A stretch of 39,317 nucleotides of DNA from a virus, in the IMG/VR virus record IMGVR_UViG_3300042430_001943, positions 1 through 39,317 of that record; one strand, written 5' to 3'. Shown one piece after another: positions 7,712-28,245 of the stretch. The notes beneath the pieces were generated by a model. It saw only the letters and a list, made by a program, of their open reading frames with translations. It did no database searches and had not been told where the DNA came from. How positions within the stretch are numbered: the stretch's first letter is position 1; each line of letters starts with the position of its first letter. Both the position numbers and the translations under genes were made by a program.

Positions 7712-9331
7712 TTAATCTAATCCTGTGATCTCACCTTTAGAATTGATACTGATCTTTTCTGCGTTTGGTCGTTCTGGTAAGCCTGGCATGGTCATAATGT
7801 TACCGCAGACTGCTACGATATACTCAGCACCCGTACATAGTTTTAACTCACGCACTGTTAAGACATGTCCTTCAGTTGCGGCTAATTTATTAGCGGGATC
7901 ATCACTGAAACTGCTTTGTGTTTTAGCAATACAAACAGGATAATGTCCATAATCTCGTTGTAGTTCTTCTAAATGTTTAGTGACCTTGGCATCCATAGTT
8001 ATATGGTAAGCACCGTAAATTTTACGAGCTACTTGCTCAATCTTATCGCACAGTGTATCATCATCTTCGTAGGTCAGCGCCATCTGATGTTTTGATCGAT
8101 CAATAGCAATAACAACTTCGTGTGCTAGGTCTGTGGCACCATCGCCACCATTAGCAAAGTGTGTACATTCAACTGCTTCAATGTCAAATGTTTCTTTGAT
8201 GTGCTCAATTAATTCCGCAATCTCAAGGTCAGTATCATCTTTAAAACGATTAATAGCAACTACACAAGGCAGGTTATACCATGTCTTAATGTTGGCTATA
8301 TGCTTATCTAGGTTGTCGTAGTTACCTTGATGTTTAACGGCTCTAACTGTTGCTACAAGCACTACTACGTCAGGTTTAAGACCGCTTTTACGACACTTAA
8401 TGTTAATAAACTTCTCAGCACCCAAGTCAGCACCAAAGCCTGCTTCAGTTACTACGTAGTCAGCTAACTTCATAGCCAGCTTAGTAGCAATAACACTGTT
8501 ACAACCATGTGCTATGTTGGCAAATGGACCACCGTGTACTAGCGCAGGAGTGCCTTCTAAGGTCTGTACTAGGTTAGGTTTAACGGCTTCTTTTAGTAAT
8601 GCGGCCATAGCACCATGTGCCTTAAGATCTTTAGCTGTAACAGGCTTACCGTCTTGTGTGTAGCCTACAGTGATCTTACCTAAACGCTTTTTTAAGTCCT
8701 TGAAGTCGTTGGCCAAACATAGGATAGCCATTACTTCTGACGCCACTACAATGTCAAATCCTGACTGTCGTGTAACGCTGTTATGGGCTCCCAGACCTAC
8801 ACAAACGTCGCGTAACGCACGATCGTTCATGTCGCTTACACGTTTCCATGTGATGTTGTTAGTGTTTAAATTGAGCCTGTTACCCCAATGTAAATGATTA
8901 TCTATGAGGCTAGCTAGTAGGTTATGAGCTGATGCGACAGCATGGAAGTCACCTGTAAAGTGTAGGTTAATGTCTTCCATTGGTGCTACTTGCGCATAGC
9001 CGCCACCAGTTGCTCCACCTTTCATACCAAACACTGGACCTAGCGCAGGTTCACGTAGGCATACAATTGACTTGTAGTTTAACTTACGTAGGCCATCTGC
9101 TAGTCCAATAGTTGTGGTAGTTTTACCTTCACCTGCGGGAGTCGGAGTAATAGCTGTTACTAAGATTAACTTGCTATCTCGACCAGGACGGTCAGCAAGT
9201 GCTTCTATGTTTAGTTTAGCTTTCCTACTACCATACACTTCTAACTGTTCGTCTCGTACATTAATAGAACCGGCAACGGCTGTAATTGGTAGTAGGTCTG
9301 CTGATTGATTGATTTGAATGTCTGTTTTCAT
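7712..9331 (-). CDS. fhs: Formate-tetrahydrofolate ligase
   Basis: Joins formate to tetrahydrofolate with ATP, giving 10-formyl-THF for purine synthesis and other one-carbon needs. The family P-loop [13 protein letters not shown] (62-74) is intact, as are GGAxGGGYAQVxPME, [11 protein letters not shown] and [14 protein letters not shown]. Length is 539 aa against about 555 usual, with no sign of damage. It stands between its own terminator and four tiny membrane genes. No strong Shine-Dalgarno precedes the ATG, but [11 protein letters not shown] is a normal N-terminus. In a phage it counts as an auxiliary metabolic gene, likely supporting nucleotide supply. Confidence 0.95.
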
Positions 9332-21390: not shown

Positions 21391-21564
21391 TTATTTTTTT
21401 AAACATTGTGCTTGTATTTTGAATGTATCAAATTTTAACCAATAGGTCAATGATTGTTTAGCCTCTTCGCACTGTGTTTCATTAGCAAATTCAAGCGTAA
21501 CCTTGCCCGGTATATCTTTTGGGTCAGTTGTGTTTACTACTAGTATCAATAGTATCCAACTCAT
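21391..21564 (-). CDS. Small exported or membrane-anchored protein (57 aa)
   Basis: I start it at the ATG that overlaps the stop of the LpxH-like gene (TAATG, 21564). MSWILLILVVNTTD gives a short hydrophobic N-terminus, and two cysteines (TQCEEAK, AQCLKK) follow in the outer part. It could sit in the periplasm. Unknown function; gene order links it to envelope work. Confidence 0.6.
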   Translation of the reverse strand: MSWILLILVVNTTDPKDIPGKVTLEFANETQCEEAKQSLTYWLKFDTFKIQAQCLKK

Positions 21565-22328
21565 TAGATTATATGATTCCAATAGACTATTGTCCATCGT
21601 CCGTCATCATGCTCAACTAGAGCACTACAGCTTTCTACCCAGTCCCCATCATTCATATAGATCATACCATTAGGCATGTGTTTGATTTCTGGTGTGTGTA
21701 TGTGTCCGCAGATTACACCATCATATCCACGTTTAGCCGCATAGTCAGTTAGGTTAGTTTCAAACTTAAACACAAAGTCAATGGCTTTTTTAACTTTATG
21801 TTTGAGATACTTGCTCAAACTCCAGTAGCCAAAGCCTAATCGTTGTCTAGCAAAGTTAAAATAGTTGTTAAACCATAAAGCTACATCATAGGCTTTGTCG
21901 CCCAAGAATCCAATCCACGGTGCTAGTCTAGTAATACCATCAAACATATCACCGTGGGTGATTAGGAATAATTCTCCATCAACACTGCGATACTCTGCTT
22001 GATTAACGATACGTATTCTACCTAGACTAAAATGATGTTGTACCAGAGGACGGAGGAATTCGTCATGGTTACCTGTCACATAAGTTACATTACATCCTCG
22101 TTTACTGTAACCTAATATTCGTCGAATAACATTAGTATGCGCTTGTTTCCAAGCCCATTTGTTCTGTTGGATTTTCCACCCGTCAATGATGTCACCTATT
22201 AGGAATAGATTATCACAGGTGTGATGTTTGAGAAAGTTATTCAGCAATTCAGCTTTAGCATCTTTAGTCCCAAGATGAAAGTCCGATATACAGATTGTTT
22301 TATATCTAATTAAGGGACTAGTGACCAT
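21564..22328 (-). CDS. UDP-2,3-diacylglucosamine pyrophosphatase-like phosphoesterase (LpxH-type)
   Basis: A 254-aa calcineurin-like phosphoesterase with all metal motifs: DFHLG (16-20), GDIIDGW, GNHDE, HGDMFD and CGHIHTPE, followed by MNDGDWVESCSALVE, which is characteristic of the LpxH2 group. LpxH removes UMP from UDP-2,3-diacylglucosamine in lipid A synthesis at the cytoplasmic side of the inner membrane. In a phage it might alter lipid A or act on another nucleotide. It is clustered with two porins. Confidence 0.85.
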   Translation of the reverse strand: MVTSPLIRYKTICISDFHLGTKDAKAELLNNFLKHHTCDNLFLIGDIIDGWKIQQNKWAWKQAHTNVIRRILGYSKRGCNVTYVTGNHDEFLRPLVQHHFSLGRIRIVNQAEYRSVDGELFLITHGDMFDGITRLAPWIGFLGDKAYDVALWFNNYFNFARQRLGFGYWSLSKYLKHKVKKAIDFVFKFETNLTDYAAKRGYDGVICGHIHTPEIKHMPNGMIYMNDGDWVESCSALVEHDDGRWTIVYWNHII

Positions 22329-22407: not shown

Positions 22408-23835
22408 CTAAAAGTTATACTGTAGTTGAACACGTAAAGCGTCTGCTTTAAAGTTAGCATAGTCTTGTTTTACTATTGTAGTAGACGATGCTCCAGTTAC
22501 TAAATTGCTACGATTCATATGATGATAGTAAGCCACAAGTTCAACTTCTGGCGCAATTTGCCATTCAGCACCTGCTTCCCAGTCGTTAACTTTATTCATC
22601 GGTGAGTTAGTTTCTGCTTTTGACGCACCATCAAAGTATTGCCATCTAACAAATGGAATTAGTGTACCATCAGTATCGCCAACTTTGAAGTGATCAATTT
22701 TATACATAGTTTGAATGTAGCCACCGTTCAAGTTAGTTTCTTTAATAATACCATCAGTACTAGCAGTAGTATCTAAGCCAGGAGTTTTGCCCCAGTTCCA
22801 CTCACCTTGTAGACCAAACGGTTGTGGGTACATCATAAAACTTACACCCATACGTTCGTCTTTGAATCCAGTGGTGTTGCCTGGTTCTAATGTTGGTGTT
22901 TTAGTTGCGTAAACGTTGTTGCCCATATTTCTTCTATACGCACTACCTGTTCTTACATACTTGCCTGTATAACCTTGTACACCAGCTTCGTATATTTGGC
23001 CGCTTTCTGTTTTCCATGGGTAAGTAAGACGTGCTACTGTGTGGTAATTATCATTACGATCTTGTTGGTTAGCACCTTGACCGTTATACACACCAATGCC
23101 AAACATACCGTAGTTTCCTGAATGTTTTAATCCTGCATCTTGTATTTCTTTAAACAGCTTTTGTATATTATCAGGTGTGTAGTAGTAGAACGCACCTAAA
23201 TCACGTTCATCACGCACCGCACTATTAAATGCGTCAGCACGATCAAGTGCTAACCGATTTTGTGAAGATTGTAAATTCTCAAAGCCATATGGTACTTTAC
23301 TTTGGCCTACACGTACACGATGTACTTTGTCTTTGGTTAGATTCACGTCACCGTAAGCATCACGTAGTTGAGCAACGTTACCTGTGGTACCTGCTGTACT
23401 AGCAAAGTCGGGTTGAATATAGTAATCTAAACGATCACCAGCTGAACCAGAAATGATCACACGTGCTCGACGGATAAGAAAGTTTTTGTCTTGATCAGCA
23501 AGAGAGTTTTTATTACCTACAGATCGATCTGACCAAAGGTTGACTCCTTCGTCACCACTAAGCATAGTAGTATTGCGCACTTGTAAATAGCCACGAATGT
23601 TCATTTTACTAGCCGCATGTACAGTAGTGTCTTTTTCTTTTTTAGCAGCTACTTTTTCTCCGCTGTGTCCTTTGGTTATAAGTGCGCCTTCTTCTTCTGT
23701 AAGTACACCCTTCATAACTAGTGCGTTAACAATGTCGCTAGTGCTGTCGGCATGCGCTTGCTTTAATCCTGCAACTGATACTGCTAGTGCTATCACTACA
23801 TAATACATTATTGATTTAATCTTTTGTATGGTCAT
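22408..23835 (-). CDS. Outer-membrane porin of the phosphate-selective O/P family
   Basis: A 475-aa protein with a signal peptide (to about AHA-DST, residue 29), then a coiled-coil-like 40-residue stretch and a 16- to 18-strand barrel. Family signs are LIRRARVIISGSAGDRLDYY, VRVGQSKVPYGFE, LDRADAF and the terminal Phe (LQYNF). OprO/OprP porins pass phosphate or polyphosphate in Pseudomonas. AAGGGG precedes the ATG. A PhoB-like direct repeat lies upstream. Selectivity cannot be read by eye, so the phosphate role is by family only. Confidence 0.88.
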   Translation of the reverse strand: MTIQKIKSIMYYVVIALAVSVAGLKQAHADSTSDIVNALVMKGVLTEEEGALITKGHSGEKVAAKKEKDTTVHAASKMNIRGYLQVRNTTMLSGDEGVNLWSDRSVGNKNSLADQDKNFLIRRARVIISGSAGDRLDYYIQPDFASTAGTTGNVAQLRDAYGDVNLTKDKVHRVRVGQSKVPYGFENLQSSQNRLALDRADAFNSAVRDERDLGAFYYYTPDNIQKLFKEIQDAGLKHSGNYGMFGIGVYNGQGANQQDRNDNYHTVARLTYPWKTESGQIYEAGVQGYTGKYVRTGSAYRRNMGNNVYATKTPTLEPGNTTGFKDERMGVSFMMYPQPFGLQGEWNWGKTPGLDTTASTDGIIKETNLNGGYIQTMYKIDHFKVGDTDGTLIPFVRWQYFDGASKAETNSPMNKVNDWEAGAEWQIAPEVELVAYYHHMNRSNLVTGASSTTIVKQDYANFKADALRVQLQYNF

Positions 23836-23869
23836 TAATATTCCCCTTATATATATTATTTAAACACAC

Positions 23870-23891
23870 AAAGATTACAGTAGTGTTACAA
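23870..23891 (-). promoter_or_regulatory. Possible Pho box
   Basis: TTGTAACACTACTGTAATCTTT contains two TGTAA half-sites 11 bases apart, the spacing of PhoB half-sites (consensus CTGTCATAAAT), 35 to 56 bases upstream of the O/P-type porin. The central bases do not match consensus well. Confidence 0.4.
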
Positions 23892-23918
23892 ACAGATTAA
23901 ATTTTTATTACAGCCGTA

Positions 23919-23944
23919 AAAAAGCCCCAGTTAAGGGGCTTTTT
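23919..23944 (-). terminator. Strong Rho-independent terminator between the porins
   Basis: AAAAAGCCCC, loop of six, GGGGCTTTTT; works in either direction. It ends the general porin transcript. Confidence 0.9.
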
Positions 23945-23968
23945 AATTATTAAACTAAGAAGTAAATC

Positions 23969-25180
23969 TTAGAAGAATAAGATAGCACCTGCTGATACTG
24001 AACGTGATTTACCTTCAGCACCATTTTGTGCTTCTGATTTAACGTCTGAGTATTCAGCAACTAGATTAACGTGTTTTGTAAGTGGGTGATAAGCACCAAC
24101 TGTCCACATTTCGTTTTTCGAAACTAATGCGGTAGCTGTTTCACCACTATTACGATCTAGTTTACTTTGACCCCAGCTTACGCCAAGTTTAGTAGCTGTA
24201 GGCAATGTGTATGTACCTTGAACGTATCCGCCGTTTGAATCACGACGGCGACCAGTAGTATCAAAACCATCAGCTAATTGTAGTGTACGGCCAATACCTT
24301 TACCATCAAAGTAGTAAGCAGTTAAACCATATGGGCCAGCAGCCAAGTTTGTACCAACGTCCCAAGCATAAGCGCGGTCATCTGCTGCAGAGCCAGTTAC
24401 ACCTTCAACTTTTTGTGAAATAGCACTTGACCATACTTTAGCAGCGATAGGACCTTCTAATGAGTATGATAGTTTACCTTCAAATGCTGGTTGAGCACCG
24501 CCACGGCCTGTTGAAGTTGCTGAAGCAGCTTGTACACCCGCAGTCACAGCACTTAGGTCAGCTGTTTGAGCATTCCATGCTTGTGTTACACCAGCCGTAA
24601 AGCTAAAGCCATTAAAGTTTGGTGATGTGTAAGCAATTTGTGATTTCCAATCAGCGTACATGAAGCCAGTACCAATACGACCCAATGTTGTTGTGTTACC
24701 AGCTAGTGCGCCAGCACCAGAACCTACACCCAACAATGTCATATCATTTAAGATAGCATCACTAGCGAAAATGCCTAGGTCTTTACCTAGTTTTACGCTA
24801 CCCCATGATTTGTCACCAATGGTTAAAAATGCTTGACGATTTTCTTGGTTAGCGCCTTGATCACCAGCCGCTGTAGTTGAAGCGCCTGGATTAATTGCGA
24901 TAGTAAAACCGATGTCTAAATCATTTTGACGTGATTTACCAGAAACTGATAATACGTTTGGTAATAAACCAGTTGTAATATTTGATTCATTACGTTGGCC
25001 TGTGCTGTTAGGACCACCAAGGCCACCAACTACTACATCACCTGTACCGCGTGTATTAGTATAGTAAGCGTTTACCACGCCACCAATGTCTAATGTCCAG
25101 TCACCTGCTGGGATTTGAATGCCAGCGTTAGCTGTAGAGTACATACTTGCTAATAGTGTTGCTAATAATAATTTCTTCAT
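23969..25180 (-). CDS. General Gram-negative porin
   Basis: A 403-aa protein with a signal peptide cleaved after TANA (residue 19), then WTLDIGGVVNAYYTNT, SRQNDLDIGFTI, NRQAFLTIGDKSWGSVKLGKDLG and a final strand SVSAGAILFF with the terminal Phe needed for barrel assembly. This matches the Porin_4 type common in betaproteobacteria. GAGG precedes the ATG, and a perfect T4-type late promoter is 62 bases upstream, followed by its own terminator. The phage therefore probably makes it late. Confidence 0.9.
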   Translation of the reverse strand: MKKLLLATLLASMYSTANAGIQIPAGDWTLDIGGVVNAYYTNTRGTGDVVVGGLGGPNSTGQRNESNITTGLLPNVLSVSGKSRQNDLDIGFTIAINPGASTTAAGDQGANQENRQAFLTIGDKSWGSVKLGKDLGIFASDAILNDMTLLGVGSGAGALAGNTTTLGRIGTGFMYADWKSQIAYTSPNFNGFSFTAGVTQAWNAQTADLSAVTAGVQAASATSTGRGGAQPAFEGKLSYSLEGPIAAKVWSSAISQKVEGVTGSAADDRAYAWDVGTNLAAGPYGLTAYYFDGKGIGRTLQLADGFDTTGRRRDSNGGYVQGTYTLPTATKLGVSWGQSKLDRNSGETATALVSKNEMWTVGAYHPLTKHVNLVAEYSDVKSEAQNGAEGKSRSVSAGAILFF

Positions 25181-25241: not shown

Positions 25242-25249
25242 TATTTATA
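25242..25249 (-). promoter_or_regulatory. T4-type late promoter (TATAAATA) for the porin
   Basis: A perfect octamer ends 62 bases before the porin ATG in a non-coding gap, so it is not explained by coding sequence. Confidence 0.7.
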
Positions 25250-26958: not shown

Positions 26959-28245
26959 TTAGTACCTATATGTTTCTGCTTTATATGGACCTTCTACTCT
27001 AACGCCAATGTAGTTAGCTTGATCCGTTGACAACTCTGTTAGTTGCGCACCAATTTGTGCTAGGTGTAGTTTAGCTACTTTTTCATCTAGGTGTTTAGGC
27101 AACAAATGAATACTACCAGTATTGTAGTCTTCCCAGTTTTGGAACATTTCAATCTGTGCTAGCACTTGATTGGTAAAGCTGTTTGACATAACAAAGCTAG
27201 GATGTCCTGTACCGCAACCTAAGTTTACTAGTCGTCCCTTAGCTAGAACAATAATCTTACGACCACTTGGCATGGTCACATGATCTACCTGTGGTTTGAT
27301 TTCATCCCACTCGTAACCAGCAATACTAGCAATATCAATCTCGCTGTCAAAGTGACCAATGTTACATACAATAGCGTTGTTCTTCATAGCCGTCATATGA
27401 TCGTGTGTGATAACATTGATGTTACCTGTGGCTGTTACAAAGATGTCTGCTTTGTCTGCGGCATAGTCCATGGTAACAACCTTGTAACCTTCCATTGCGG
27501 CCTGTAAGGCGCAGATTGGATCTACTTCAGTTACCCAAACTTGAGCTGACAGAGCACGTAGACTAGCGGCTGAACCTTTGCCTACATCGCCATAGCCTGC
27601 TACCACAGCAATCTTACCAGCAATCATAACATCTGTAGCACGTTTAACAGCATCAACTAGGCTTTCACGACAACCGTATAGATTATCAAACTTAGTTTTA
27701 GTCACTGAGTCGTTAACGTTAATAGCACGCAGGTGGAATTGACCTTTGGCAATTGCTTCGTTAATTTTGTGTATACCAGTTGTGGTTTCTTCTGTCACTC
27801 CACGGATATTACCTAATAGGCCCGGGTGGTGTTTGTGTATATAATAGGTTAGATCATGTCCATCATCTAATAGCATATTAGGTGTCCAACCATCTGGACC
27901 ATGTAGGGTGCGTTGAATACAATCCCAGTATTCTTCCTCTGTTTCACCTTTCCAAGCAAACACAGGAATACCCAGGTCAGCTAAGGCAGCCGCGGCATGG
28001 TCTTGTGTACTAAAAATATTACAACTACTCCAACGCACTGTTGCTCCTAGCGCGATCAGAGTCTGTACAAGTACCGCAGTTTGAATAGTCATGTGTAGTG
28101 ACCCTGCGATGCGAGCGCCTTTAAGTGGTTGTGATTCTTTGTATTCTTCACGTACTGCCATTAGGCCCGGCATTTCCGTTTCAGCAATGGCTATTTCTTT
28201 ATGACCCCACGCCGCAAGTCCAATGTCTTTGATTTTATAATCCAT
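26959..28245 (-). CDS. ahcY: S-adenosylhomocysteinase
   Basis: Splits S-adenosylhomocysteine to adenosine and homocysteine with bound NAD, relieving product inhibition of methyltransferases. A 428-aa protein starting [16 protein letters not shown], with [22 protein letters not shown], the NAD loop GYGDVGKG (217-224), and ending [12 protein letters not shown], as in bacterial enzymes. GGAAG precedes the ATG. The window holds at least four methyltransferases and one radical-SAM protein, so it fits as a recycling enzyme. Full length, no damage seen. Confidence 0.95.

Follow-up and report, generated by a model that had tools for sequence, protein, structure and literature searches.

A proposed outer-membrane nutrient module built on two host-type porin genes in a T4-like phage

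What would a T4-like phage gain from carrying two different porin genes? The question is raised by a virus record of 39,317 bases (IMGVR_UViG_3300042430_001943), analysed here over its full length and referred to as the window, which encodes on its minus strand a porin of the phosphate-selective O/P family (PorOP) and a general porin (Por4). An earlier note on this sequence had described the pair as two distinct porins, the general one with a late promoter and its own terminator and the other with a possible Pho box, and had proposed a role near the end of infection such as receptor replacement or nutrient entry. Both open reading frames are indeed intact, lie at exactly the positions reported, and match different porin families (Table 1).

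Table 1. Features of the window discussed in the text
Feature	Position	Strand	Support or remark
UvsW-type phage helicase (phage context)	5002..6459	-	phrog_16, E 5e-74
Formate-tetrahydrofolate ligase (C1 metabolism, context)	7712..9331	-	E 3e-235
LpxH-like metallophosphoesterase, constant neighbour of PorOP/pstS	21564..22328	-	under NCBIfam LpxH cut-off
PorOP, phosphate-porin family (Pfam Porin_O_P), 475 aa	22408..23835	-	E 3.4e-40
Signal peptide of lost pstS (PorOP first 29 codons, in-frame fusion to mature porin)	23749..23835	-
TTAAAT, -10-like hexamer exactly 10 nt past the Pho-box-like site	23858..23863	-	conserved; putative function
Pho-box-like direct repeat TTGTAAC-ACTA-CTGTAAT	23874..23891	-	host-derived matrix; conserved in L007, L009, L012, L116, L180
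Intrinsic terminator behind Por4 (AAAAAGCCCC-TTAACT-GGGGCTTTTT)	23919..23944	-	-15.7 kcal/mol, z -3.1
General porin Por4 (403 aa, Pfam Porin_4) with host-derived barrel; signal peptide of phage type, MKKLLLATLLAS	23969..25180	-	E 2.5e-21
TATAAATA late-promoter motif of Por4, 61 nt before ATG	25242..25249	-
S-adenosylhomocysteine hydrolase (SAHH), in relatives usually upstream of Por4	26959..28245	-

Relatives, selection and the presumed host

The description of the phage as T4-like holds by virtue of its relatives, the long ones of which encode T4-type gp23 and portal proteins, and of the UvsW-type helicase; no capsid gene was found within the window itself. Close relatives of Por4 are present in 13 viral contigs and of PorOP in 10 (12 to 219 kb, 86-100% identity). 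An alignment search added nine further contigs with Por4 at 45-53% identity and a PorOP at 65% identity in L180, while a 40% PorOP match in L182 lies among neighbours unlike those of the window's phage group. The gene order in L007, L012 and L116 is SAHH, Por4, PstS, PorOP (or Porin_5) and the LpxH-like gene, and SAHH adjoins Por4 in most relatives; in the window the order is SAHH, two genes, Por4, PorOP and the LpxH-like gene. Among the viral copies dN/dS was 0.06-0.18 for Por4 and 0.04-0.13 for PorOP, and both genes are under purifying selection.

Homologues of Por4 were found in 119 of 150 Methylophilaceae genomes, the best at 72% identity among full-length matches, and full-length PorOP in about 30 of the 150 (58-75% identity). 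The closest bacterial PorOP, at 73% identity, belongs to a Methylotenera oryzisoli MAG, and in the tree the viral PorOP clade is sister to the Methylotenera homologue. By homology, both porin genes are derived from Methylophilaceae. Among 50,697 records of named phages no homologue of Por4 and a single weak match to PorOP (28%) were detected, and neither protein matches any PHROG family. The formate-tetrahydrofolate ligase and SAHH of the window and a PQQ methanol dehydrogenase in L004 fit a methylotroph, and the host of the phage is probably a member of the Methylophilaceae. The L004 enzyme (XoxF-like, 621 aa; L004:11495-13360) is encoded between Por4 and the LpxH-like gene.

Several further genes were observed in these contigs. 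A sugar-nucleotide/glycan-type island with epimerases, methyltransferases and glycosyl-type genes (window:14288-21060) adjoins the porins and may be a surface-modification island. A B12-binding radical SAM protein (window:29820-31748), for which the nearest NCBIfam model is a KedN5-type C-methyltransferase with a score well under cut-off, adjoins a desaturase-like gene. L009 encodes a CHASE2 and adenylate/guanylate cyclase protein (L009:16288-18300), with an AhpC-like peroxiredoxin close by.

PorOP, pstS and the Pho-box-like site

PorOP scored 138.9 bits against Pfam PF07396 (cut-off 20.9), which places it in the phosphate-selective porin O/P family of OprO/OprP type. Its phosphate selectivity is predicted by family only, because a profile search against solved structures returned zero matches and the AlphaFold2 models of PorOP and Por4 were discarded at a pLDDT of 29-30 (29 for PorOP). 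Porins of this type bind phosphate through an arginine ladder in the lumen; in a sequence alignment of 29 viral and host rows, 18 Arg/Lys positions are invariant. The distance between PorOP and pstS is 3-5 kb in several host genomes. Being host-derived, kept by selection and carried by a lytic-type phage, PorOP qualifies as an auxiliary metabolic gene.

The association with pstS extends to the phages. In L004, L007, L012 and L116 pstS lies no more than 10 bp upstream of the porin gene, and in the window, L002, L009, L014 and the 219-kb contig G014 it is missing, within their contig sequence, but for 29 residues. These residues, the start of PorOP in the window, match the beginning of PstS in relatives at 76% identity, and in those relatives PorOP has its own, different signal peptide. 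All fused PorOPs fall into a single clade (99/98), and no fusion is present in the outgroups L116 and L180, so that the fusion appears to be a single derived deletion. In L116 a Porin_5 barrel (L116:7012-8358) stands in for PorOP behind the same pstS; the two proteins have in common an N-terminal DSTDDIVNALVxKGVLTEEEGAL segment and differ in the barrel, which points to a barrel exchange behind that segment. The swap ties an outer-membrane channel to phosphate binding, with the partner changeable and the pair kept. In another phage contig (L118:4928-6352) the gene immediately after pstS (55%) codes for a small outer-membrane-like protein of 148 aa.

The LpxH-like gene is the other constant neighbour. 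Its score of 49 bits falls short of the NCBIfam equivalog cut-off of 134 for LpxH (lipid A), and the name is doubtful; a phosphate-related phosphoesterase is possible. The window protein is 45% identical to the product of a gene adjoining pstS in Pelagibacter phage Mosig (L147, MT647606.1:4098-5933), where the two genes are divergent, and LpxH-like and pstS genes are thus paired in T4-like phages whose hosts are unrelated.

The possible Pho box reported before PorOP proved to be a Pho-type site that is conserved in diverged phages, but it is degenerate in the window (TTGTAACACTACTGTAAT), with 10 of 14 consensus bases. When scored with a matrix derived from the Pho boxes of hosts, the window site has an expectation of 0.004 per 170 nt, and the sites of relatives one of 0.001. 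Pho boxes with at least 12/14 consensus bases precede 23 of 25 host PorOP genes and many host pstS genes, and the score before host Por4 genes never exceeds 9/14. The DNA 5' of the window PorOP is nearly identical to that 5' of pstS in relatives, and in the diverged L116 (before pstS) and L180 (before PorOP) TTGTAACAnnACTGTAATCTT and, 10 nt on, TTAAATA are kept, with little else. Against a reading as a PhoB site, the phage half-sites are TGTAA, not TGTCA. Predicted Pho boxes in phages are unreliable, although cyanophage genes can be under host PhoB (PMC10976474). The wiring of PorOP also varies among relatives, since L004 and L017 have no Pho-box-like site and their PorOP genes are located behind the LpxH-like gene. 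TTAAATA before PorOP was considered as a late promoter and not adopted, its enrichment being only 3.5-fold. At the level of sequence, the region upstream of PorOP thus has the features of phosphate-starvation regulation, and the most likely role of PorOP is phosphate uptake under host-type (PhoB) control.

Intergenic DNA of both phages and hosts contains a short inverted repeat, GTTGTnnAAAnnACAAC, found before Por4 in L004, L005, L009, L010 and L162 and before the host PorOP gene in L094, L095 and L100; it is a candidate terminator, attenuator or operator.

Promoters and barrels of Por4

The perfect late promoter and the terminator ascribed to the general porin were both recovered. Counted in the window alone, TATAAATA is not enriched (3 copies, 5.3 expected), and the count was replaced by a position test on two long relatives and the window. 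There, 22 of the 27 exact copies are followed by a start codon within 80 nt, a zone that takes up 4% of positions (p ~2e-26), and the upstream enrichment ranks first of 56 anagrams; for ATAAATA, 62 of 84 sites are upstream of genes, an 18-fold enrichment. The genes behind TATAAATA include those for the portal, baseplate hub, tape measure and tail fibre. Because the motif is enriched upstream of genes and is followed by structural genes, it is taken as the late promoter of this phage family, in the arrangement of a T4-type late promoter, (N/T)ATAAATA upstream of structural genes. It is identical to the late promoter of T4, that of cyanomyoviruses being NATAAATA (PMC2984593). Of the gp55/gp33/gp45 machinery that serves such promoters, gp55 was not among the 25 of 53 families listed in a family scan.

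The spacing at Por4 is unusual. From motif end to ATG there are 55-75 nt, where structural genes usually have 18-36 nt. In 12 of 16 Por4 upstream regions (L163 being read by eye) the late motif, or a weaker CTAAATA, falls between the hexamers of a TTGACW...TACACT-like promoter, within their 17-bp spacer, and under a strict pattern Por4 is the sole gene in the two long genomes with such a late/sigma-70 overlap. Overlapping early and late promoters have been described in RB49 and S-PM2 (PMC2984593). The window, L161, L165 and L169 have a different leader without the sigma-70 part. A generic promoter scan of the region performed at chance (15 found, 15.3 expected), and what is said here of sigma-70 therefore refers to conservation in the relatives, not to the window. 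Because the late motif overlaps a sigma-70 promoter in most relatives, Por4 is probably expressed both early and late there, and the late expression of the earlier note, taken as late-only, is not supported.

The history of Por4 is one of exchange. Trees of the full-length and of the mature protein each require at least three host/virus changes: the window's clade is sister to host L065, a second clade lies near small-genome hosts (L106, L191, L193, L200), and L168 is placed with host L199 on a long branch whose position is less sure. All 16 viral Por4 proteins have a signal peptide of the type MKKxLLATLLA, which is found in 0 of 39 hosts. Given these tree changes and the single viral signal-peptide type, the conserved phage signal peptide, and usually the leader, stayed in place while the barrels behind them changed, with no fewer than three captures of a barrel from a host. 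The segments most divergent from hosts, for example residues 205-216 and 385-396, differ in length from one host to another, are conserved among viruses and look like loops. A search of Por4 against solved structures gave weak chitoporin matches.

A nutrient module, its rivals and known systems

We consider it probable, with considerable room for doubt, that the two porins form an outer-membrane nutrient module in a T4-like phage of Methylophilaceae, with PorOP for phosphate under PhoB and Por4 for permeability. PorOP would be the host's phosphate-starvation porin, taken together with pstS from the host pst neighbourhood; pstS is kept in relatives and reduced to its signal peptide in the window. 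Under phosphate shortage, host PhoB probably switches PorOP on via the Pho-type promoter, and more phosphate crossing the outer membrane would serve phage DNA synthesis. Por4 would be the host's general porin placed under the phage's own promoter (the late motif in the window, overlapping sigma-70 and late promoters in most relatives), and its probable effect is that small solutes can still cross the outer membrane as host synthesis stops. Starting from the genes and their origins, the promoter sequences and their conservation, selection and the pstS deletion, this mechanism predicts PhoB binding, transport and the timing of the porins. The nutrient-entry role proposed earlier is accordingly well supported for PorOP, by the host Pho boxes, the pstS neighbours and the conserved Pho-type footprint, and not for Por4.

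For Por4, the host's major porin under phage control, a permeability role is more likely and receptor replacement is possible. As a superinfection-exclusion porin made late, Por4 would alter the surface such that adsorption of sister or rival phages is prevented, or that these phages are not lost to cells near lysis. The late motif, the three or more barrel swaps behind an unchanged signal peptide, and the loop-like segments that set viruses apart from hosts all favour such a role; we nevertheless rate it unlikely, if the strongest of the rivals, because the sigma-70 promoter of most relatives implies expression that is not only late, the gene is located in a metabolic block, and age alone also predicts divergence from hosts. 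A related and slightly less likely proposal is that the locus is an exchange cassette, in which whole host barrels were grafted at least three times onto a fixed phage signal peptide and a mostly fixed early/late promoter and leader, re-dressing infected cells with a changed surface to control which phages still adsorb.

That late Por4 weakens the outer membrane and aids lysis would suit the late motif and the separate terminator, and is improbable given that Por4 is a full-length porin of host type under strong purifying selection and that relatives have sigma-70 promoters; porins are not known as lysis proteins. The host origin of both genes might also suggest a host-phage assembly chimera, a possibility that the earlier note had itself raised, or passive, non-functional host cargo. 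Recurrence of the SAHH-Por4-(pstS)-PorOP-LpxH-like block in independent viral contigs rules out the chimera. Chimera and cargo taken together are highly improbable: the block occurs in the 13 close and nine more diverged contigs, up to 219 kb long and with phage genes around it, dN/dS is far under 1, and the Por4 signal peptide is phage-specific. The nutrient module remains our preferred reading, and suggests a remodelling of the cell surface by the virus that lets nutrients, phosphate in particular, continue to enter during infection. Repeated barrel capture behind one signal peptide makes it testable whether phage porins feed the cell or alter its receptors.

A full-text search of the open-access literature found no paper on porins in methylophages. 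The Lc and NmpC porins of temperate enterobacterial phages, which act in receptor exclusion and belong to another Pfam family, are likewise phage-borne general porins. The window pair differs in consisting of the host's own major porin and phosphate porin, in a T4-like phage; the carrier is not a temperate lambdoid phage as in the lambdoid exclusion class, the relatives having T4-type capsid and portal genes, and the analogy with lambdoid receptor replacement is weak. The Lake Baikal methylophages VP_139 and VP_266, with predicted Methylophilaceae hosts, encode methanol dehydrogenase and S-adenosylmethionine-cycle genes (PMC7678222). Compared by gene content, they are T4-like as is the present group, in which L004 has a PQQ methanol dehydrogenase by the porin-block genes, but the text of PMC7678222 mentions neither porin nor pstS. 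Pelagibacter phage Mosig, also a T4-like aquatic phage, has pstS next to an LpxH-like gene; unlike here, no porin is annotated beside that pair. A viral OmpL porin beside glnK-amtB, described in an excerpt of PMC8115048, is similarly a virus-encoded porin paired with a nutrient-uptake gene, but concerns ammonium and Bacteroidetes-type genes, and the excerpt does not report a starvation-type promoter.

The closest parallel is cyanophage pstS under host PhoBR control, as in P-SSM2 (PMC10976474, PMC3686209, PMC2984593), where T4-like phages likewise carry a host gene for phosphate uptake whose expression is believed to depend on host PhoB. The window differs in encoding an outer-membrane channel, pstS being present in relatives and lost here, in its presumed host of another phylum, and in a site of the proteobacterial Pho-box type. 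Cyanophages have supplied most known examples of phage phosphate genes, which have a periplasmic or cytoplasmic site of action. Here, in phages of methylotrophs, the outer-membrane step of phosphate uptake is phage-encoded as well and apparently wired to the host's starvation switch.
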